Positions 3,093 to 30,718 of a DNA stretch of 48,203 nucleotides are shown in pieces. The DNA lies in the IMG/VR virus record IMGVR_UViG_3300031823_000010, positions 1 through 48,203 of that record; one strand, 5' to 3'. This DNA comes from a virus. The notes under the pieces are model-generated. The model ran no database searches and was not told where the DNA came from. It saw only the letters and a list, made by a program, of their open reading frames with translations. The first letter of the stretch is position 1. Each line of letters begins with the position of its first letter. A program made the position numbers and the translations under genes.

Positions 3093-4214
3093 CTAATAGC
3101 CAACAGCGAATACCTGCGGCGTAGTTCCGTTGACGCCATCGTCGCCACGCCGGGCGCGGCGAAGATTGACTAAACCATTGTTGAATCCGGTGGTCTGGTA
3201 GATCATGATTTGGTTGTCTGGCCCGCTCGTCCAGATGGTCGTCACCTGACAATTGAGGCAGGCGTGTGGGAACCACATCGGAAAATTGACGGCCTGATAT
3301 ACCGTCCCGCTCGCCGTCTGGTTGTAGCCCTGCGCCCATTGAAAGATCAGCCCGTTGGGTAGCCGCATCCACCCATTGAATGCACCCATATCGATAACAC
3401 CGGTGGGCATGAGGCCCGCAATCTGATTGCGCACATCATCGAACTGCGGCGTTGCCCAGTTCAGTAGGTATGCCTGCACATTGTTAGTGTGCGTAACCGA
3501 CTCATGCACTGCTGCGACTTGCGCGTTATTGGCCAGATTTTGTGCGTGCTCGTTGGTAGCGTAGTTGGCTAACCGCTCTTCGACGTAAGAGCGCAAAGCG
3601 AAATGCTCGTTCGTCCAGGCATGGGTAGCGTAGTTGCCTAGTATCTCATGGACCCAAGACTGCAAAGCGAAGTTGCCCAACGTCCATTGCTCAAGCTCAT
3701 GGCGCTGTCCGGCGACATACTGCGAAACGTAATCGCCGACCCAGTTCATCCTTGCGTAGTAAGCCTCCGCGTCGGTGATACGCAGATAAAGTAGATCGGC
3801 CATTCCTTCGGTGAGATAGCCATAGCCGCCGATCATATCCATAACGATGTAACGGATGAGGGCTTCAGCGTCATGGCGGCGGCACGGCATCAATTCCCAA
3901 TAGCCGGATGCATCGCCGACGGGGTCGACGCCTGTGCAGGGAACAAGGTTCCAATAGACCGAACCGTTTGAGCCGATGCACATGCCCAATCCCTGATAGC
4001 TTTCGTCGGGCGAATACTCGGCGACGCCGAGACGACAAATGTATTTGACCGCCGCCGACGTAATGAAGTCGCGAGCATTGAATTTGGCTGCTGGCGGTCG
4101 CGTCTGAGTTTCGGTAGACCAACCCGCACCGATCTCAACCGCTGACATATCTGCTCTGCCGCCATGCTCAGCGACAGCGGGGAACGTTGCATCGGGTCGT
4201 GTGTAGGTCGACAT
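3093..4214 (-). CDS. Tail fibre with gp53-like C-terminal domain
   Basis: The 373-residue third fibre starts at ATG 4214 behind GAGAGGCGAAA. Its N-terminal 120 residues are a diverged form of the attachment module of the two larger fibres, with the same ESYQGLGMCI...YWELMPCR arrangement. A shaft of imperfect Asn/Tyr/Ala repeats (LGNYATHAW, LANYATNEH) follows. The last 100 residues (WMRLPNGLIFQW, NFPMWFP, FAVGY at the end) fit the gp53-like C-terminal fold of phage fibres. It is likely a receptor-binding or side fibre on the baseplate. Confidence 0.8.
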   Translation of the reverse strand: MSTYTRPDATFPAVAEHGGRADMSAVEIGAGWSTETQTRPPAAKFNARDFITSAAVKYICRLGVAEYSPDESYQGLGMCIGSNGSVYWNLVPCTGVDPVGDASGYWELMPCRRHDAEALIRYIVMDMIGGYGYLTEGMADLLYLRITDAEAYYARMNWVGDYVSQYVAGQRHELEQWTLGNFALQSWVHEILGNYATHAWTNEHFALRSYVEERLANYATNEHAQNLANNAQVAAVHESVTHTNNVQAYLLNWATPQFDDVRNQIAGLMPTGVIDMGAFNGWMRLPNGLIFQWAQGYNQTASGTVYQAVNFPMWFPHACLNCQVTTIWTSGPDNQIMIYQTTGFNNGLVNLRRARRGDDGVNGTTPQVFAVGY

Positions 4215-4225
4215 TTTCGCCTCTC

Positions 4226-5746
4226 TTACCAATAGATTTGTACAAAGCCGGGGCCAGCGGGGCCTATAACCGTAGAACCTCCACCACCGCAACCGCGTGC
4301 GCCGCGAGACCAGTTCATTGCAGTTCCCGCATTCAGGCCAGAGGGAGTGCCGCTGCCGCCATGGACGCCACCGCCATCACCGCCGCGCAGCCCCGGAACA
4401 CCCCATCTTCCGTTGACGCCATTGGTTCGAGTCATGGAGATGACGTGATCGCCGCCATTGGTAATTCCGCCTGTGGTGCCGCCGCCGCCCGGTGCGGCGA
4501 AGCTCCCGTTAGCTCCCGGTGCAACGAACAGGTTCGGCGTCACTATTGGCGTGTGCGTAGAAAATTGCGCCTGCGTATTTCCGGCCTCGCGTATGTTGAT
4601 GGTCAAAGGAAACATGTTCGCAGTGATTCCCTGCAAGGTCGCTTCGAGCAGCCCGCCTTCGCCGCCGCCATGCCCGCCAGTCGGGGCTTCGCCACCGGAG
4701 CCGCCTGACCCTTTCAATACGAGCCGCAGGTGGATGCCCTCGGGATGAGTTGCGAGGGTGGGAATTTCAGAGGCGTTGACAAAGAAGGTTCCCAGCATCG
4801 CGAACTCGATGTAGTGCAGCATGATGTCAACTGCGATAGGCGTGAGCCATGGCCGCCAGAAGTTGGTATCGAATAGCGAGTTGCCAGTGTTCCCGTCAGT
4901 CATGCTTTGGTAGATGATGCTTGATGTTGTGTCCAGTACCATCGCGCCCGCGTTGTACATGTCGCCCGAACGAAAAACTCGCAGCCCTGCATTGTCGAGC
5001 GCGAGAAACGTATCTTGAGCATTTACTTGTGTCTCGAAGATTGCCGAAGCATCAGCCTCAGTCATAAACCGCGCATCGGCCTGTTCCGGGGTTATGAACG
5101 TAGCCGCAGCATCGGTCCTGGTTATGAAGTCGGCAAGCGTCTCATCCAGTTGTTCACGGCTTATGACGTCACCCTTGAGTACATAGCGTTCGTCGGCTTG
5201 CGCCTCAGTGAGAAAGAGTGCTTCGGCCTGTTCGGTAGTGAGATAGTGCTCTTCGAGTGCGGCCTTGGTCACGAACTCGATCGCGGCATTAGCTTGTGTC
5301 AGAAACAACGAGTACGCTGCTTCCCGCGTGTGGAAGTGCTCACTTGCCGATTCGGGAGTAAGAAAGATTTCTTCTGCCTGCGCCTGCGTCATGTACAGTG
5401 CATCGAGATCGCTCTTTCGCCAGGGCAGCTGCTCCCACCAGCCGGCGAGCGCGTCTGGCAGATGGCCAACGTTTGCGTCAACAGTCGAATAGTAGAAGCT
5501 GTCTTCAAAGATCACGATGCTTCCCACGCTGTACTCAGCGTCGAGCACCCACGCGGGCACGCCGGTCGTCAGGTAGTAGAGCACGCCGTTGATCGCGTAT
5601 TGCAGCGCGTTGTTGATCGACTGGCGTGTCGGCTTTTCGTTCGTACCCGATGGATATCCCGCCGCCATCTCTTCGTGAGTCAGCGGCAGCATCACTTCAT
5701 CTGCGGCCCACGGACGCGGGAAAAATCTCGGAATCGTAATTGCCAT
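4226..5746 (-). CDS. Tail fibre with decapeptide-repeat shaft and glycine-rich tip
   Basis: A 506-residue protein. Residues 1-115 form an attachment module shared with the next fibre (FPRPWA, KPTRQSINNALQYA, PWRKSDLDA). Residues about 117-188 and 207-255 are exact-period 10-residue repeats of the type FLT-xxxAxx. A globular module follows (260-305), and residues 345-506 form a glycine-rich tip with GGHGGGEGG, GGDGGGVHGGSG and GCGGGGS, ending in VQIYW. The tip resembles glycine-rich domains of phage adhesins and probably contacts the receptor. It is the insertion-free paralogue of the malectin-bearing fibre at 5756-9133. Confidence 0.82.
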   Translation of the reverse strand: MAITIPRFFPRPWAADEVMLPLTHEEMAAGYPSGTNEKPTRQSINNALQYAINGVLYYLTTGVPAWVLDAEYSVGSIVIFEDSFYYSTVDANVGHLPDALAGWWEQLPWRKSDLDALYMTQAQAEEIFLTPESASEHFHTREAAYSLFLTQANAAIEFVTKAALEEHYLTTEQAEALFLTEAQADERYVLKGDVISREQLDETLADFITRTDAAATFITPEQADARFMTEADASAIFETQVNAQDTFLALDNAGLRVFRSGDMYNAGAMVLDTTSSIIYQSMTDGNTGNSLFDTNFWRPWLTPIAVDIMLHYIEFAMLGTFFVNASEIPTLATHPEGIHLRLVLKGSGGSGGEAPTGGHGGGEGGLLEATLQGITANMFPLTINIREAGNTQAQFSTHTPIVTPNLFVAPGANGSFAAPGGGGTTGGITNGGDHVISMTRTNGVNGRWGVPGLRGGDGGGVHGGSGTPSGLNAGTAMNWSRGARGCGGGGSTVIGPAGPGFVQIYW

Positions 5747-5755
5747 GATGACCCC

Positions 5756-8700
5756 CTACCAATCCACAGTGATGAAACCTTCAGCCGCATTGCCAACAGG
5801 CTCGCCGCCGAACCAACTGCTGCCGCCACCACCATGAACTCCTGTCGCAAACGTAGTAAAGACTTCACAGCCCGAAAGCGTGGCATTGGCTGCGACAGTC
5901 TCAAAGAGAACCACGATGTTTCCGTTGCTATCACTGCGTGCGCGATAGTCCACGGCCAAGGCTGTGCGAAGTCCTGCTATACCTTCAGGGCTGAAATTGG
6001 TAGCTACTCGCACGCCATTGAAAGTGATGTTGATAATTCGCCGCTCCGTGCCGCCAGCACCATCATCGACAAAGTGCAAACGCACAACATATTCGGTGTT
6101 CGGTTCAAGTGGCAACGTGAGTGTCCAATTGATATCGAAGCGGATCGTGTCGTAAATGACCCGAGGCGCAACATTTGGGCGACTCATATTGAGTTCTTCG
6201 CCTGACATCCAATCAAACCCACTGCCCGCTGTAAAAATAGCACCCGCATCGCTCATCCAGTCGGCGAGTGCTGGCCCACCCGCGTTCCATCCATAAACGC
6301 GAGTCATCGCTGGCAATCCTAGAAACTCCATTTCGATGCCATTGAGAATTGGATCAACCCCAACATTAGGCGGTATCGCCTCAAACCAGATGTGTAGCCC
6401 CTCAGCGTTCGCCGTCACATCTGTCTCTAAGATGTACGCAATGAATTGACCTCCGGCCCGCTCAAAGACATTGAAGTTTCGCGCAATCCACCGGTTGTTT
6501 ACTGCTACATCAAAACTGCGACTGCCTGACTCATCCCAGCACTCACAGAAGTGCAAGCGCAGACGATAGACCCAGCCGGGAGTAACCGTCGGCGGGGAAA
6601 TCCTATAACTAAACGGAGTTGGCGTACCTCCACCCCCAAAGCGACAAGTTCGATAGACCATGTCCGGCGCGGGGCGAACGACTCGACTAATGTCAATCGT
6701 CGCCGCTGCATCAGTAGCAGTGACATTTCCGCCCGTATACCACCTGTCTTCCCAACCCGGTTCGCCAAGAAGCGCAGCACCGCAATTGATCGGAGCCATG
6801 CCGCTTGGCATCGGCAAGACTGGAAAGATTTCGATTCCGTTGATCTGCGGAGCGTCGGTGACACCCCAAAACCCGATATTGAATTGGCCGAACTGACTTG
6901 CCTGTACTACAAATGTTTGAACGTTGGCGATGCGTGCTCCACCCGCTGCTGCGAAAATATCAAAATTCTCCAGCACAAAGTCCAAGTTGACCCTGATATG
7001 GAATACACGTTGTCCAGCAACTTCAACGAAATGCTCGCAAAAGTGAAAACGAATAACGTGAAGAACGAAAGGTGCAGCAAAATTGAGAACGTTATAACTC
7101 AGGGTATTGGTTGGAGTTATATATCGCGCCGACTGGTAAATCTCCATCGGTGCGGGTCGCAGGACTTGACTCATATCAATAACGCTGTCGGGGATGTTGT
7201 ACGTTGAAGTTGGCAAGCCACCGCCGCCTTGATATCCAGTATCGACACCCCACGCGCCAACGACGTCGCCGCCACAGTTGATAGTTCGCAGCGGCATACC
7301 ACTGCCGCCGCCAGCTCCACCGCCATCACCACTGCGAAACCCCGGCCATGCGAACTTCCCATGAGCGCCGGGTATCTTCTCCACTGCCATGAGCCCACGG
7401 CCAAGCGCGACCGTGGCTTGATCGCCGCCTAGTCCGGGCTCTTCCTCCGTCGCGTCGCTGCCGGGCGATACGCTGAGTAATGTGACCAGCGGGAGGATTT
7501 CAATTCCGGCGATAATGGGCGGGTGTGCCTGCGGAGTAAATGTAATAACGATCTGCCCTTGAACGTTCGCCGTTGCGAGCGTCGTTTCTATATAGGCGAT
7601 GCGAACACCGCCTGTCGCCTCGATAATGTTGAACTGATCCAGAATCATGATGTTGTTGACGACTACCCTGAATCGACGATGGGGCCAACCGCCTTCTGTC
7701 CAGAGTTCGCAGAAATGTAAACGCACAATCTGATACGACCCCGGCGTATAGCCGCCGAAGGTATAGACCAATGGGGTGGGATCATCGAAACGCACCGACC
7801 GATAGACTTCTTCCGGCGCGGGCGACTCAACATGACTGAGATCAATCGGCCCACTACCGGGATCACCGTGCGCTACGCCCCCGCCGAAACCCTCGTCGGC
7901 TCGCCAAGTCTCAAGGGCACCACCCCCACAATTTACTTGTAGCGTCTGATTCCCAAACCTGTTGATAGATGACTGCTGCCCCGGACCGCCAACGATAAGC
8001 ATTAGAGGAAACATTGACTCTTCCACGACGGCAGTGGCAGTAATCTCTGCGCCCTCGCCGCCGCCGCCCACTCCATAACCCCTGCCGCCGCCAGCCTTGA
8101 GACGAAATCTTGCCAGAATTTCGCCGTGCGTTTCCACTTCCGGCAACAGTAGATCTTCCAGGGCGAGACTGTACGTTCCGCTCTCGGTATACGTCAGTCT
8201 GTGCGCCCACTCTCCCGCGCCCGATGGCACCACATAGGGCGGCGTCCACTCTGTCCAATACTCTTCATCATCTAGTGGGTGGCCTATGTTGTCGTCGGCC
8301 AGGCTACGATAGATCATCTTCGTTTCAGAGTCGAACGCGAGCACGCCGAAACTATAAGTCGCCTCGGGACGATAGCGGCTGATAGCTGCATTGATCTTGG
8401 CTTCGAAGCGTGCCTTCGCATCTTCCGACGTAAGGTAGATAGCTTCACCGCGATCGCGAGTGAGATGGGTTTCATCGTCAAGCGTGAGATAAAGTTCTTT
8501 ACCGTCGGCGAGGGTCAAATACTCTTGCAAGACTTCGGCCAGCACTTCAGCCGAGATCGTATCTTCGTAAATCGCATAACGTTCATCAGCGATAGCCACG
8601 GTAAGGAACAGGCTGATAGCCTCTTCGCGAGTGATGTACTCAGCCTCCAACGCAGCCTGAGTCACATAGAGCAACGCCATCTTTGACGGCGTGATAAACA

Positions 8701-9133
8701 ACGCTTCCATCTGCGCTTTGGGATAAAAACGTTCATCGGCATCAGTAAAGCTGACGAAGCGTGAATTGCCAAACTCCATCGTCAGGTAGATCGCGTCGAG
8801 CGCATCCTTGCGCCATGGCAGCGGTTCCCACATGATGGTGGCACCATCGGGTGCGCCATCACTGGGCGCTATTGCTAAGAGAAAAGTGTTCTGATTGCGG
8901 ACGATGCTACCTACCGCATACTGAACCTCGGCACTCCACTCCGGGACGCCATGCGTAAGGAAGTAGATGATGCCGCCAGTAGCGTACCGCAGGGCCTTGT
9001 TCAACGTCTGTCGCGTTGGGCGCTGCTCCGTGCCACCGGGAAAGGCTGCGACCATCTCTCCCTCAGTGAGTTCCGGCAGCTGCTCGTTAGCGGCCCACGG
9101 ACGCGGATAAAACTTCGGAACGGTTATGGCCAT
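5756..9133 (-). CDS. Giant tail fibre with four malectin-like domains in a glycine-rich tip
   Basis: A 1,125-residue protein starting at ATG 9133 behind GAGGGAGTTTCA. Residues 1-115 match the attachment module of the neighbouring fibre, and decapeptide repeats (YLT/FIT every 10 residues) run about 115-250. A glycine-rich tip then begins (GGGRGYGVGGGGEG). It is interrupted by a malectin-like domain at 401-549, resumes at 584-614 (GDGGGAGGGSG), is interrupted by three more at 618-772, 782-938 and 946-1092, and ends with GVHGGGGSS and FITVDW. Each malectin-like unit shows INCGG-type or related starts, the VYRSVRF type strand, RLHFCE and a closing GIEI/GCEV strand. Malectins bind glucose-type oligosaccharides, so glycan recognition is the likely job. 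Confidence 0.85.
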   Translation of the reverse strand: MAITVPKFYPRPWAANEQLPELTEGEMVAAFPGGTEQRPTRQTLNKALRYATGGIIYFLTHGVPEWSAEVQYAVGSIVRNQNTFLLAIAPSDGAPDGATIMWEPLPWRKDALDAIYLTMEFGNSRFVSFTDADERFYPKAQMEALFITPSKMALLYVTQAALEAEYITREEAISLFLTVAIADERYAIYEDTISAEVLAEVLQEYLTLADGKELYLTLDDETHLTRDRGEAIYLTSEDAKARFEAKINAAISRYRPEATYSFGVLAFDSETKMIYRSLADDNIGHPLDDEEYWTEWTPPYVVPSGAGEWAHRLTYTESGTYSLALEDLLLPEVETHGEILARFRLKAGGGRGYGVGGGGEGAEITATAVVEESMFPLMLIVGGPGQQSSINRFGNQTLQVNCGGGALETWRADEGFGGGVAHGDPGSGPIDLSHVESPAPEEVYRSVRFDDPTPLVYTFGGYTPGSYQIVRLHFCELWTEGGWPHRRFRVVVNNIMILDQFNIIEATGGVRIAYIETTLATANVQGQIVITFTPQAHPPIIAGIEILPLVTLLSVSPGSDATEEEPGLGGDQATVALGRGLMAVEKIPGAHGKFAWPGFRSGDGGGAGGGSGMPLRTINCGGDVVGAWGVDTGYQGGGGLPTSTYNIPDSVIDMSQVLRPAPMEIYQSARYITPTNTLSYNVLNFAAPFVLHVIRFHFCEHFVEVAGQRVFHIRVNLDFVLENFDIFAAAGGARIANVQTFVVQASQFGQFNIGFWGVTDAPQINGIEIFPVLPMPSGMAPINCGAALLGEPGWEDRWYTGGNVTATDAAATIDISRVVRPAPDMVYRTCRFGGGGTPTPFSYRISPPTVTPGWVYRLRLHFCECWDESGSRSFDVAVNNRWIARNFNVFERAGGQFIAYILETDVTANAEGLHIWFEAIPPNVGVDPILNGIEMEFLGLPAMTRVYGWNAGGPALADWMSDAGAIFTAGSGFDWMSGEELNMSRPNVAPRVIYDTIRFDINWTLTLPLEPNTEYVVRLHFVDDGAGGTERRIINITFNGVRVATNFSPEGIAGLRTALAVDYRARSDSNGNIVVLFETVAANATLSGCEVFTTFATGVHGGGGSSWFGGEPVGNAAEGFITVDW
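5858..6298 (-). other. Malectin-like domain 4 (coding segment)
   Basis: Residues about 946-1092 of the giant fibre. It starts YGWNAGGPALADW in place of the INCGG start and contains PRVIYDTIRF, EYVVRLHFVDDGAGG and the closing SGCEVF. It is the most diverged of the four copies and keeps the family order of strands. Confidence 0.7.
6320..6790 (-). other. Malectin-like domain 3 (coding segment)
   Basis: Residues about 782-938 of the giant fibre. Hallmarks are INCGAALL, APDMVYRTCRFGGGG, YRLRLHFCECWDESGSRSFD and ILNGIEMEF. The RLHFCE strand is shared with copies 1 and 2. Confidence 0.78.
6818..7282 (-). other. Malectin-like domain 2 (coding segment)
   Basis: Residues about 618-772 of the giant fibre. 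It begins INCGGDVVGAWG, followed by APMEIYQSARY, IRFHFCEHF, GQRVFHIRVN, ENFDIFAAAGG and NGIEIF. It sits in the second loop of the glycine-rich tip, directly after GGAGGGSGMP. Confidence 0.78.
7487..7933 (-). other. Malectin-like domain 1 (coding segment)
   Basis: Residues about 401-549 of the giant fibre. It contains NCGGGALETW, APEEVYRSVRF, IVRLHFCELW, RRFRVVVNN, DQFNIIEATGG and IAGIEI. It is inserted in the first loop of the glycine-rich tip, after the strand MFPLMLIVGGPG that aligns with MFPLTINI of the shorter fibre. Confidence 0.78.
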
Positions 9134-25379: not shown

Positions 25380-26377
25380 GCTGCTTCCTCTTCCTCAGCC
25401 TCTTCGACCAGCGGCAGGGCAGCGCAGCGGCAGTTGATATCGTCGCCGGGGTTGCCGAGTGAACCGTCATCGAGTGGTGCGCCCTGGTCGAAGCTGAAAA
25501 CCTGACCATCGTTTTCGGCGTGGCTTTCACGCACGCGCTCATCCCCGGCAGTTTGCCAGGTGTACTGCGAGATGCCGACCGACGCGCTGCGGGCTTCGTT
25601 CATCGCCGCCGCGATCTTGCTCGACTGGTCGCGAGCGATCAGGTCAACGCGATAGTCGGCCAGGTCATTCACCTGACTAACGCCCTCGCGCAGCTTGTCA
25701 CTCAATGACTCCCACCGTTCGGCAGTGGCGACGTGGTCGAACAGGACCTCTTGCACGCGATCGAAATACTGTTCTGGAATCGAAGTGATCAGGCCGATGT
25801 TGGTGTCGACCGCATCGTCGAACGCTTGTTGAATCGCGCTCTGGCCGCGAATGATGGCGAGCGTCGCCAACGGCTGCACCGTACCCGCGCTGATGCCTAG
25901 TTGTACCTGACGGCGTTGACGCTCGATCGCAAGACGCTGGGCTCGCGTTAGTCTGCGAGCCGTCGCGTCACTCGTTGCCATCGTTGTAGGCAATGAATTC
26001 TGAATCTTCGGCTGCGGCAATAAGCCGACCTGAAGCGGAATCCCGTAGCGTTGCATGTAGCGCGTGAACCAGTCATCGGTCGACTTCAGACCAAGCGTGA
26101 CTACTTGCTGCGCAGTACGTTTCACGTCAATCGGCATAGTGAAACCCTTGCGGGCTTTGTCGACGATGTCGGCGACGGAACGATGCACGGAGACGCGCTC
26201 TCCGAGATCTAGTTCGCCCTCTGATTTCGACAACTTTGTCGCGAGGTTTCTGATCTCGGCGGTGATCTCCTGCTTGACGTCTTCGGCAACGATGCGCAGT
26301 CGGCGCGTATACCAGGTCTGGTTTTTCCGTTTCACCAGATCAGCCTGGCCGCTCCGCAGATACTTGCGCAGTGTCAT
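25376..26377 (-). CDS. Mu gpF-like minor head protein (SPP1 gp7 family)
   Basis: The 333-residue protein starts at ATG 26377, an ATGA overlap with the portal gene; the frame upstream to 26545 is Arg-rich noise. The C-terminal third has the Phage Mu F signature: QYTWQTAGDERVRESHAEND, then NPGDDINCRCAALPL, whose Cys/His residues may bind metal. The N-terminal two thirds are helical. Family members enter the procapsid and assist packaging or DNA delivery. Confidence 0.87.
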   Translation of the reverse strand: MTLRKYLRSGQADLVKRKNQTWYTRRLRIVAEDVKQEITAEIRNLATKLSKSEGELDLGERVSVHRSVADIVDKARKGFTMPIDVKRTAQQVVTLGLKSTDDWFTRYMQRYGIPLQVGLLPQPKIQNSLPTTMATSDATARRLTRAQRLAIERQRRQVQLGISAGTVQPLATLAIIRGQSAIQQAFDDAVDTNIGLITSIPEQYFDRVQEVLFDHVATAERWESLSDKLREGVSQVNDLADYRVDLIARDQSSKIAAAMNEARSASVGISQYTWQTAGDERVRESHAENDGQVFSFDQGAPLDDGSLGNPGDDINCRCAALPLVEEAEEEEAA

Positions 26378-27789
26378 GGCGTGGTCACTCCACTCATCGA
26401 TCGCAGCATCGCGGCGGGGTCGACGGGCAAACCGTTGCTGTTGGTTGGCGGGGGTGGCGCGGGTGCGCCGGTTTCTTCGATGAGGTCGACGTCTTCCTGC
26501 GTCATCGAAACCGAGAAGCCCTCGGCGAGCAGATCGGCAGCGCACGTCTCGGGCAGATACGCGCCATCGGTCATGTAAACGTGTCGCGCCTGCGCCTTCT
26601 GCAAATTGATCGCGGCCTGTTCGCTATTGCTGACCTGCCATAGCGCATTGAAGTCGAACCAGAGATTTTCGGGGAAGTAGCCGAGAGCAGAGCGAATGAG
26701 GACCTGATCAAACTGGTTCAGGAGCGGGCGCATCTTGAATTCCTGTTTGATCGAAAGGGTGTCGTACCAGTTACGAAAATCACTTTCACCGGTTGCGTTC
26801 AAGCCTTGCGGGGAGCGTCCGAAGAGCAGCGTCGCGGGCATCTCGGTTGCGCCGCAGACTATGTCCTGATGTTTCTGCAATAGCGTGTCGTAGCCGCGCA
26901 CGTCGATAGGCTGACGGCGTAGCTCATCGGTTTTGTCGATGATGACGGCGCGATAGACGCTCTTGAGATCGGCGGCCATCTTGACCCGCCCACGCACAAC
27001 GCGCTCACCTTCGGCGTCGGAATAACGCTCGTACAAATGCTCGATGGCGTAGACGTCGATAGAGCCTTCCTGCATTGCCTTGGACGATGCTTTGACCGAG
27101 GCTTCGAAGCCCTTGATGGAATCGAGCACTCGCTGAACCGTCGACCCATGCCAGCGTGAGTTACGCAGCCAGGCCAGGCGCGGCAGCCGGCAGCCATCGA
27201 AGCGTAGACAGCGCGACGCATGAATCGTGGTCGCCCCGGCCTGACTAAGAATTTCGTAGGTTTCGGGATAGCGGAAGTTGGGCGAAAGGGGATCGAGAAT
27301 GAAGTTTTGCGACGCCGTCACTTGCCAGCGGTCGATCACCGTAAGCGACGTCAACTGGCCTTGCTGAATGCTCTCGACTTCGAGCGGAGATGAGAGATCA
27401 TCCCCGTCGAGCCCCATCACCACCAACGCGCCCCCGTAGAGATCGCCCCACATCATGGCTTCGGTGAAGACGGTCTTGACCGCGAGCATGGCTTCGAGCT
27501 CTTCGATCACTTCGACGTCAACGTTCTCGTCGCCCTCGATTTGGATGGTGCGCCACTCTCGCGTCATGTGCTGCGCGGGCAGTTCGATGAAGCGCCCGAT
27601 GATGAACGAGTTGAGGAAAGCGTTCTCGGCTTCATTCTGCGTGAGGAAGTGAGTCGGGGTGTACTGCAACTGAACGGTGGGGTCATAGCCGATGACGCCC
27701 ATGCCGGTTTGGTCATTGCGCAGACCGTCGGTGAACGGAATCACCGTGGCTCGGAGTGGCTGACCGAATTGGTCGACGAGTGCGCCCAT
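26374..27789 (-). CDS. Portal protein, DUF1073 (anti-CBASS-named) family
   Basis: The 471-residue protein matches DUF1073 portals: GYDPTVQLQYTPTHFLTQNE, MTREWRTIQIEGDENVDVE, LYGGALVVMGLDGDD, EMPATLLFGRSPQGLNATGE and FRNWYDTLSIKQEFKMRPLL. It forms the ring at the capsid vertex through which DNA passes. ATG 27789 is the best start although no Shine-Dalgarno is visible; a hairpin lies 18 bases upstream. The next in-frame start, 27891, would run into the divergent control region. C-terminal Pro-rich linker: APAPPPPTNSNG. Confidence 0.88.
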   Translation of the reverse strand: MGALVDQFGQPLRATVIPFTDGLRNDQTGMGVIGYDPTVQLQYTPTHFLTQNEAENAFLNSFIIGRFIELPAQHMTREWRTIQIEGDENVDVEVIEELEAMLAVKTVFTEAMMWGDLYGGALVVMGLDGDDLSSPLEVESIQQGQLTSLTVIDRWQVTASQNFILDPLSPNFRYPETYEILSQAGATTIHASRCLRFDGCRLPRLAWLRNSRWHGSTVQRVLDSIKGFEASVKASSKAMQEGSIDVYAIEHLYERYSDAEGERVVRGRVKMAADLKSVYRAVIIDKTDELRRQPIDVRGYDTLLQKHQDIVCGATEMPATLLFGRSPQGLNATGESDFRNWYDTLSIKQEFKMRPLLNQFDQVLIRSALGYFPENLWFDFNALWQVSNSEQAAINLQKAQARHVYMTDGAYLPETCAADLLAEGFSVSMTQEDVDLIEETGAPAPPPPTNSNGLPVDPAAMLRSMSGVTTP

Positions 27790-28034
27790 AGTCGTGTGGA
27801 AAGGAAGCCAGCACGCATGACCATGCTGGCCTAAACGAAAATGTAAAAACTCCGAAGAAGCAGCTTGGCAAAAGACTGCGTCTGTGCGCACTCTAAGGCG
27901 TCGACTTACTCTGCGTCAATGAGTTGGGAGTAAGTTAGTCGTAAGTGGTGCGGAAATTCGAACTACTCAATTTGCCGCAATTGACGCACCCTTCCGCAAT
28001 AGGTTGCAAAGTCGGACAGGAATTTGTAACTCCT
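27790..28034. promoter_or_regulatory. Divergent control region between late operon and terminase
   Basis: This 245-bp stretch holds no clear gene. It contains a hairpin (GCCAGCA 27807-27813, TGCTGGC 27824-27830) and a perfect 8-bp inverted repeat (ACTTACTC 27904-27911, GAGTAAGT 27928-27935). It also has two outward TTGACG boxes: minus strand 27914-27919, with TTAGAG 17 bp on, and plus strand 27981-27986. The boxes could be -35 elements for late transcription in both directions. The -10 matches are weak, so an activator would be expected. Confidence 0.45.
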
Positions 28035-29597
28035 ATGGCAACAACGTCACCTAGTCTTGATCGAGCGATCGTCGAGCTTCGCATTCGTGAGGCGATTTCA
28101 CAGAAACGTGCGGCTCGCCACTTTTCGACTTTCGTTCGCTACATGCAGCCCGCTTACTACATGGGCTGGTTTCATCAACGCCTGGCGAACGCGCTCAACC
28201 AGTTTGCCGAGGACGTGATCGCGGAGAAGTCGCCGCGCCTGATCATCGAAGCCCCGCCGCGCCACGGCAAGAGCACCCAGGCGTCACGCCTGTTGCCACC
28301 CTTTCTCCTGGGCAAGTGCGCCGACCTCGAAATTCTTTCGACCAGCTACGGTGACGCGATCGCCCTGGAATTTTGCGCTGACGTTCAACGCATCATGGAC
28401 TCGACGCATTACCACGGCGTTTTCCCTGAGACGATGATTCCCGGCATCTACGGCAAGCGGGGCATGGTCAAACGGTCTGCCGACCACTTCGGCATCATCG
28501 GCCGTCTCGGTGCCTATCGAGCCGCGGGTCTGAGTTCGGCGCTTACCGGGCGCGGTGCCGATGCGCTGATCATCGACGACCCATTCAAAGGGCGTGAGGA
28601 TTCGCAGTCACCCGCGCAGCGTTCGAAGATCTACAACAATTTCGTCTCGGCGGCCATGACTCGCGTGCACAAGGGCGGCGGCATCATCATCATCGCCACC
28701 CGCTGGCACGAGGACGATATCGTCGGGCGCATCCTGGCTGATACCGAATGGGCGGCGCAATGGACGGTGGTCAGCTTTCCCGCCATCGCCACCGACGATG
28801 AGTTCGACGAGCAAGGCGATCTCATGCGCAGCCAGGGTGAGGCGCTGTGTCCGCAGTTAAAGTCGCTTGCCGAGTTGAATGAACTGCGCCGGTCCATGTC
28901 GATCTCGATGTGGTCGGCGATCTATCAGCAAGCACCATCCCCGGAGTCGGGCGGCTTGCTCAAGCGGTATCACTGGCGTTACTGGCAACCCATCGGCGCG
29001 GGTTTGCCCCCGGTTGTGGTCGAAGACGAAGAGGGGCGCAAGGTCGAGATCGTCGCCGAAGAGTTGCCGCGCCTATACGACCGCAATCTGCAATCGTGGG
29101 ACCTGAACTTCGGCAACGCCAAGCAAGATGGTGACTACGTCGTCGGGCTGGTGATCAAGACTCGCGGCGCGAAGCGTTTCATCATCGATCGCTACAAGGA
29201 GAAAGCCGACTTCACCGAAACCATTCGGGCGATGCGCGAGATGATCGACCGCTATCCCGAATGCTCAGCGAAGTACGTTGAGAAAGCCGCGAACGGCGTG
29301 GCCTCCATGAGTCTGCTCGAAAACAACTACGGCATCACCGGCCTGATTCCAATTCCGAAAGACAAAAACAAATTTCTCTATGCCGATACTGCGAATGATC
29401 AACTCCGTGCGGGTAACTGGTATCTCCCGCATCCTGCACTGGCTCGCTGGGTGGATGATTTTCTTTACACGCTGACCATGTTCCCCAACGCGAAGCATGA
29501 TGACGACGTCGATGCATGGTCGCAAGCCGCAATCAAATTGCAGACCAGTGCTAGGCTCGATGTGTTCCTGAGAGATGTTGAAGGTGAAATAACGTGA
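28035..29597 (+). CDS. Terminase large subunit (ATPase/nuclease)
   Basis: This 520-residue packaging motor has Walker A PPRHGKST at about 74-81, Walker B ALIIDDPF near 176-184, and RNase H-like nuclease acidic residues in SWDLNFG (about 354-360) and HDDDVDAWSQ (about 489-498). A frame extends up to GTG 27945, but ATG 28035 is preferred by homologue length. It stands alone on the plus strand, divergent from the portal it must dock to, with the small-subunit candidate 4 kb away on the other strand. Confidence 0.92.
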   Translation: MATTSPSLDRAIVELRIREAISQKRAARHFSTFVRYMQPAYYMGWFHQRLANALNQFAEDVIAEKSPRLIIEAPPRHGKSTQASRLLPPFLLGKCADLEILSTSYGDAIALEFCADVQRIMDSTHYHGVFPETMIPGIYGKRGMVKRSADHFGIIGRLGAYRAAGLSSALTGRGADALIIDDPFKGREDSQSPAQRSKIYNNFVSAAMTRVHKGGGIIIIATRWHEDDIVGRILADTEWAAQWTVVSFPAIATDDEFDEQGDLMRSQGEALCPQLKSLAELNELRRSMSISMWSAIYQQAPSPESGGLLKRYHWRYWQPIGAGLPPVVVEDEEGRKVEIVAEELPRLYDRNLQSWDLNFGNAKQDGDYVVGLVIKTRGAKRFIIDRYKEKADFTETIRAMREMIDRYPECSAKYVEKAANGVASMSLLENNYGITGLIPIPKDKNKFLYADTANDQLRAGNWYLPHPALARWVDDFLYTLTMFPNAKHDDDVDAWSQAAIKLQTSARLDVFLRDVEGEIT

Positions 29598-30037: not shown

Positions 30038-30718
30038 ATGACGAAGCCGAAGCCGAGATGCCCCGAATGCAACAAGATTTTCGCTACCGTGCAGCTGCTC
30101 GCAATGCATCGCAAGAAAGCACACAACGTCGAGGGCACCTCGAAATCACACCTCGCCACGAAAGCACTCAAGGCAAAGATAGAAGCGGCTGCACCGATAG
30201 CCGCTCCGATCGTCGAAGTAAAACCTGAACCTCTCCCGCTCAAGTGCGCTGATTGCGATTTCACATGCGACAAGCCACAGTTGCTTGGACGTCACCGGCG
30301 ATTCACTCATGGGGTCGTCGGTGAGGTCACCCGTATCAATCGAGAGAAGATGGAAAAACGGCTTCTCCAGGGTACGGGGTTTCCCTGCCCGCACTGTAGC
30401 TTCAACGCCGCGTCGCGCAATGGTCTCGGCGTCCATCTCGTTACCACGCATAAAGACCTAGCCACCACTATCGAAGGAGAGACAGACCTTGATCGCCCTA
30501 AAGAAAAACGACTTGCACGAATCAACAACAACGGGAGCAACGGGAACCACAGCGAAGAAAGCCACTTTGCTGCAAATGGTATCCCCGAAGGCACCCTCGC
30601 CCTTGCCCTTGGCCGATTCCAAGGACTTTGCCAAAGCATGGCGACTGAGTTCGACCTTCCTCCGCGGCTGTTTGCCTCCCGGCTCGCAGAGCTTATATAC
30701 CGCTCGCAAATACGGTAA
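30038..30718 (+). CDS. Triple C2H2 zinc-finger protein
   Basis: The 226-residue protein starts at ATG 30038 behind GGAGTTTGA. Three fingers of the form C-x2-C-x12-H-x4-H are seen: CPECNKIFATVQLLAMHRKK (about 8-27), then at about 70 CADCDFTCDKPQLLGRHRRF, and near 115 CPHCSFNAASRNGLGVHLVT. Fingers 1 and 2 are separated by an Ala/Lys/Pro linker. An Asn-rich linker leads to a C-terminal helical part (LALALGRFQGLCQSMATEFD, LPPRLFASRLAELI). Multi-finger C2H2 proteins are rare in bacteria and their phages. DNA or RNA binding is likely; a target is unknown. Confidence 0.8.
   Translation: MTKPKPRCPECNKIFATVQLLAMHRKKAHNVEGTSKSHLATKALKAKIEAAAPIAAPIVEVKPEPLPLKCADCDFTCDKPQLLGRHRRFTHGVVGEVTRINREKMEKRLLQGTGFPCPHCSFNAASRNGLGVHLVTTHKDLATTIEGETDLDRPKEKRLARINNNGSNGNHSEESHFAANGIPEGTLALALGRFQGLCQSMATEFDLPPRLFASRLAELIYRSQIR

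Follow-up and report, generated by a model that had tools for sequence, protein, structure and literature searches.

Glycine-rich tips of phage fibers are known from Pam3 gp24 (PMC9608196) and from gp38 of T2, S16, and PP01 (PMC12892980), where variable segments recognize receptors. Adhesion proteins of phages can also carry additional modules: carbohydrate-binding modules inserted in Dit promote adsorption to exopolysaccharide hosts (PMC10688798), and related modules in streptococcal phages have been described as a LEGO-like assembly (PMC9437275). For the malectin family, the sugar contacts of the animal protein, as quoted in PMC7783096, are Y67, Y89, Y116, F117, and D186. Here, we describe a giant phage tail fiber whose glycine-rich tip is interrupted at two points by malectin units.

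The window, a 48.2-kb (48,203 nt) virus record designated IMGVR_UViG_3300031823_000010, encodes a contractile tail sheath, tape measure, baseplate hub, baseplate J protein, portal, head protease, major head protein, large terminase, and integrase, as identified by Pfam and PHROG searches. Its source is a contractile-tailed, probably temperate phage. The portal (minus strand) and large terminase (plus strand) genes at 26374–29597 are divergent, with starts approximately 50 bases apart. Near the large terminase, a 226-aa frame (30038–30718, plus strand) contains three Cys2His2 zinc-finger-like motifs, which match PF00096 above its cut-off (E = 8e-7) and are unusual in a phage. The baseplate J gene is followed by a DUF2612 baseplate protein and then by three fiber genes, of which the giant fiber is the first (Table 1). 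These three consecutive genes (3093–9133) have related N-termini and three types of C-terminus: a malectin-loaded tip, a plain glycine-rich tip, and a Gp53-like domain. The N-terminus of the third fiber is 24% identical to that of the giant fiber (E = 1e-6), and the arrangement suggests a baseplate carrying a mixed fiber set. A good ribosome-binding site, GAGAGGGAG, lies upstream of the giant fiber gene, and the small fiber gene begins a few bases past the stop of the giant fiber gene with a start of its own.

Table 1. Features of the giant fiber gene and of the two fiber genes that follow it, in window coordinates.
Feature	Position	Strand	Basis or remark
Giant tail fiber with malectin units, 1125 aa from MAITVPK	5756..9133	-	Genuine open frame, between baseplate genes and second fiber
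N-terminal baseplate anchor and stem, residues 1-310, common to small fiber	8204..9133	-	40% identity to P0002, 60% to L005 fiber
Tip block 1, residues 337-392, GGGG motif and MFPL strand	7958..8125	-	Alignment to small fiber
Malectin unit D1, residues 397-549, slot 1	7487..7945	-	PF11721, 43.6 bits
Tip block 2, residues 551-614, PGLGG ... GDGGGAGGGSG	7292..7483	-	Match to small fiber (P0002), E 8e-11, no composition correction
Malectin unit D2, residues 614-771, first in slot 2	6821..7294	-	PF11721, 59.4 bits; 53% identical to L005 E2
Malectin unit D3, residues 777-938, second in slot 2	6320..6805	-	PF11721, 46 bits; 50% identical to L005 E1
Malectin unit D4, residues 943-1094, third in slot 2	5852..6307	-	PF11721, 27.5 bits
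Tip block 3, residues 1097-1125, GVHGGGGSS ... GFITVDW	5759..5845	-	Weakest-matched of the three blocks
Small paralogous fiber, 506 aa, uninterrupted glycine-rich tip	4226..5746	-	Paralogy to giant fiber
Third fiber, related N-terminus and Gp53-like C-terminal domain	3093..4211	-	PF21882, E 8e-13

The malectin assignment itself is secure. Across the whole record, PF11721 (Malectin) has exactly four matches, all of them within the giant fiber frame, at residues of about 398–529, 617–767, 821–932, and 980–1058; with 27.5–59.4 bits, all four exceed the curated cut-off of 23 bits, which bears out the four malectin-like domains of the original prediction. The limits given there to the units (401–549, 618–772, 782–938, and 946–1092) proved right to within a few residues. 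The whole protein matches PF11721 with an E value of 4e-47, PF12819 agrees, and both families still match when each of the units D1–D4 is cut out and searched alone. Among Pfam and PHROG entries, the giant fiber matches malectin and tail fiber families only, the latter through a weak PHROG match of the anchor and stem, and neither a Dit belt nor a galectin domain was found in it. The four units share 27–42% identity with one another. Third-position GC is 0.51–0.57 in D1–D4 versus 0.63 in the stem, a difference suggestive of foreign origin but too small to build on.

The small fiber next door provides a natural control for the tip. The two paralogues are 40% identical over residues 1–302, and an alignment starting at residue 1 continues past the MFPL block as far as about residue 420 with 37% identity. 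When the three tip blocks of the giant fiber are joined without their inserts and aligned to the small fiber tip, the score is 196.5, a value reached by none of 2000 shuffled tips (27 ± 13) and by none of 2000 shuffles in which the glycines were fixed in place (60 ± 15); the remaining five block orders score no higher than 122. Blocks 1 and 2 are strongly matched, while the short block 3 is weaker (4 of 2000 shuffles). The alignment thus upholds the view that the neighboring fiber carries the uninterrupted tip with its blocks in the same order. Since the blocks match in that order, one malectin unit lies between blocks 1 and 2 (slot 1) and three lie between blocks 2 and 3 (slot 2), just as had been proposed.

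Further evidence comes from the sole relative that we found in the virus collection, an 8035-base contig (L005). Searches with the malectin alignments and with a J-protein alignment each returned this contig only. Its gene order is that of the window—baseplate J (68% identical), a DUF2612-type protein, and a giant fiber—with the fiber truncated by the end of the contig. Over the stem, the two giant fibers share 60% identity, and the relative retains tip blocks 1 and 2. A single malectin unit (E1) occupies its slot 1, and at least three (E2, E3, and a cut E4) lie in its slot 2; three of the contig's units match PF11721 over the curated cut-off. A further domain of approximately 190 aa lies inside the stem of this fiber (L005:5176–5778); it is absent from both window fibers and matched neither Pfam nor solved structures. 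While E2 corresponds to D2 (53% identity), E1 in slot 1 is 50% identical to D3 of slot 2 versus 35% to D1 of slot 1. In the tree, D3, E1, and the partial E4 form one clade (support 99/99), and a tree uniting the slot-1 units D1 and E1 is rejected (AU p 0.0002). Consequently, units have changed slots or been copied between them while the frame stayed constant: in these alignments, units are exchanged between two slots of a conserved frame. Because the relative shows such exchange in conserved slots, the observation is stronger than the original prediction could know.

How far does this family extend among phages? A tblastn search with the whole fiber and the malectin units gave no credible match among 50,697 phage records, and none of 38,880 PHROG families matched the units better than E = 0.03. 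No relative emerged from viral contigs scanned with P0001, P0002, baseplate J alone, and A2, or from a genome scan with the two fibers. The virus collection was searched by short peptide patterns, and because it is searchable only in this way, more relatives may exist. One weak match, in Microcystis phage MaAM05, was rejected as not a malectin gene, the record carrying bacterial housekeeping genes at that place. That 274-kb record (MW495066.1) carries rplK, rplA, and ilvD, and may not be a phage. The same kind of tblastn search, run with the E2 unit, detected malectin in 12 plasmid records. Among cellular proteins, the nearest units found belong to the bacterial relatives L009 and L010. They sit C-terminally on glycoside-hydrolase-like proteins from an Opitutaceae genome, whose module is 37% identical to D2, and from a rumen bacterium, with the enzyme types read from sequence. 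In the literature searched, malectin, phage, and tail fiber were not found together, and papers combining malectin with bacteriophage were unrelated by title and abstract.

The spatial arrangement of the tip can be described with less assurance. AlphaFold models of the tips reached pLDDT values of only 47 and 44.7 because they drew on only three to six sequences. In a Foldseek search, the low-confidence model of the giant tip ranked FERONIA and ANXUR first, with CBM35 and CBM51 entries lower, but this ranking carries no information on the packing of blocks 1–3; the low-confidence model of the small fiber tip returned noise and no match. A profile of the tip blocks had no match among solved structures, including the solved glycine-rich tips, and the Gly_rich_2 (PF21722) profile gave no match at E ≤ 1. 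Both fibers carry several glycine-rich motifs at their distal ends, with variable segments between them, and both lie beside baseplate genes. By analogy with the arrangement of the Pam3 fiber (PMC9608196), slot 2 would correspond to a loop at the distal end, flanked by glycine-rich motifs. Slot 1 follows a strand of the sequence pattern FPLTLTVG and, judged by the Pam3 strand order (PMC9608196), may be a β-sandwich turn nearer the base rather than a tip loop. Accordingly, of the original prediction that units are inserted into the tip loops, the two insertion points are certain in sequence, while a tip folded as one body, with the units on its loops in space, is putative.

Whether the units bind sugar depends on more than their fold. 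A profile of the four units matches plant malectin-like ectodomains best among solved structures (E = 3e-22), followed by animal malectin (E = 4e-7). The closest solved relatives, FERONIA and ANXUR, are ectodomains of plant receptors whose known role is in peptide-hormone signaling, so that fold alone is no proof of sugar binding. We compared the sugar-contact positions in seven units, placing them by motif alignment to what we take to be the animal malectin sequence, with the placement of Y67 being uncertain. By this presumed placement, F or Y occupies the Y89 position in six of the seven, and every unit except D4 has W, F, or Y at the Y116 position; an Asp near D186 is found in D2, D3, E1, E2, and E3 and is missing from D1 and D4. 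The aromatic residue is not kept at the F117 position. D4 retains the Y89 aromatic alone of the three positions compared. Overall, and subject to the same assumed placement, D2 and D3 retain most of the contacts and D1 some of them, and D4 has lost most. We infer that D2, D3, and perhaps D1 would bind glycans, with D4 a candidate spacer or binder of some other ligand. Malectins vary, and the sugar bound could be a glucose oligosaccharide or another glycan.

On balance, we judge it probable that CBM57/malectin modules of the bacterial type supply a glycine-rich receptor-binding tip with glycan binding. The giant fiber would be one of three tail fibers on the baseplate of a contractile-tailed phage, its C-terminal tip presumably of the receptor-recognizing, glycine-rich kind exemplified by Pam3 gp24 and T2-type gp38. 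Malectin-family (CBM57-type) modules, such as those on bacterial glycosidases, could have been acquired at two points of this tip and later duplicated, lost, and moved between both. The tip of each fiber would then be flanked or surrounded by as many as four glycan-binding units, or twelve if the fiber is a trimer, and these may bind host surface polysaccharide weakly and with high avidity, final contact perhaps falling to the tip core or to the small fiber. Weighing against this reading are the two contact positions that D4 has lost, the low confidence of the tip model, and the single relative, incomplete at its contig end. The further proposal that a family of phage fibers uses its glycine-rich tip as a socket with two exchangeable slots, which take up malectin-type glycan-binding modules derived from bacteria and in which these are copied and relocated to give a combinatorial receptor-binding repertoire from a lectin family not previously known in phages, is a possibility that we regard as falling somewhat short of probable.

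Other readings deserve consideration. The units may be structural decoration or spacers that lengthen and stabilize the tip, or may, like their plant relatives, attach to protein receptors, with no sugar binding in either case. The FERONIA and ANXUR ectodomains as best PDB matches and the eroded contact positions of D4 are in keeping with this, as is the domain without a Pfam match in the L005 stem, by which β-rich insertion may be general. Yet five units (D2, D3, E1, E2, and E3) retain most of the aromatic and Asp contact positions, and the units differ and move between slots as specificity modules would, so that we consider this explanation unlikely. Less likely again, the glycan bound could be environmental rather than on the host surface—mucus, or a plant or algal polysaccharide—and so hold the phage where its host feeds. 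Phage particles with Ig-like mucus-binding domains are known, and bacterial malectin modules sit on enzymes that act on environmental glycans; the units described here, however, are placed in a fiber tip, where blocks of a receptor-binding domain flank them, rather than on the capsid or tail tube.

The least plausible account, to which we give very little credence, would dissolve the tip altogether: the glycine-rich blocks would not form one domain but would be linkers joining malectin units as beads on a string. Low confidence in both structure predictions and the weak match of block 3 leave some room for it, but the blocks are contiguous in the small fiber, where they are matched in order and beyond their glycine pattern, and L005 keeps blocks 1 and 2.

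If the glycan-binding reading is correct, it would offer a modular route for changing glycan specificity, and the malectin family—otherwise of animals, plants, and bacterial enzymes—would gain a place in phage host recognition. The known variation of receptor-binding tips lies in short loops, but in this fiber entire lectin domains are exchanged at set positions of a conserved tip, the neighboring paralogue being uninterrupted and a relative having other units in the matching slots.

Set beside the described systems, the locus is closest in scaffold to the Pam3 gp24 tip, a TNF-like plus glycine-rich domain, and to the gp38 tips, with which it shares distal glycine-rich motifs parted by variable segments and an N-terminal part for docking to the tail. 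In addition, the window weakly matches the Pam3-type cement protein. Where those tips carry short variable loops, however, the giant fiber has whole 150-residue domains inserted. As for the modules, PF11721 membership and partly kept contact positions are shared with bacterial glycosidase malectin/CBM57 and animal malectin, but those reside at enzyme ends or in the endoplasmic reticulum, whereas the giant fiber has four units in two slots of a virus fiber. Plant CrRLK1L ectodomains (FERONIA and ANXUR) also have tandem malectin-like domains and are the best solved-structure matches, although theirs are two fused domains in a receptor kinase with no common context. The parallel in principle is the evolved Dit/Tal of phages of Gram-positive hosts (PMC10688798, PMC9437275), in which carbohydrate-binding modules, variable in number, likewise occupy a conserved adhesion domain, and for which a role in adsorption is proven. 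There, BppA-like and other modules are set in the Dit ring or Tal extension of siphophages, in contrast to malectin modules in the fiber tip of a contractile-tailed phage. Because evolved Dit already embodies this principle, calling the fiber a new receptor-binding architecture, as the original prediction did, is too strong; what does appear new is a glycine-rich tip that bears malectin-family domains. In essence, lectin modules in phage adhesion proteins were already known, and what appears to be new is the malectin family, the scaffold that bears it, and the exchange of units between two slots.
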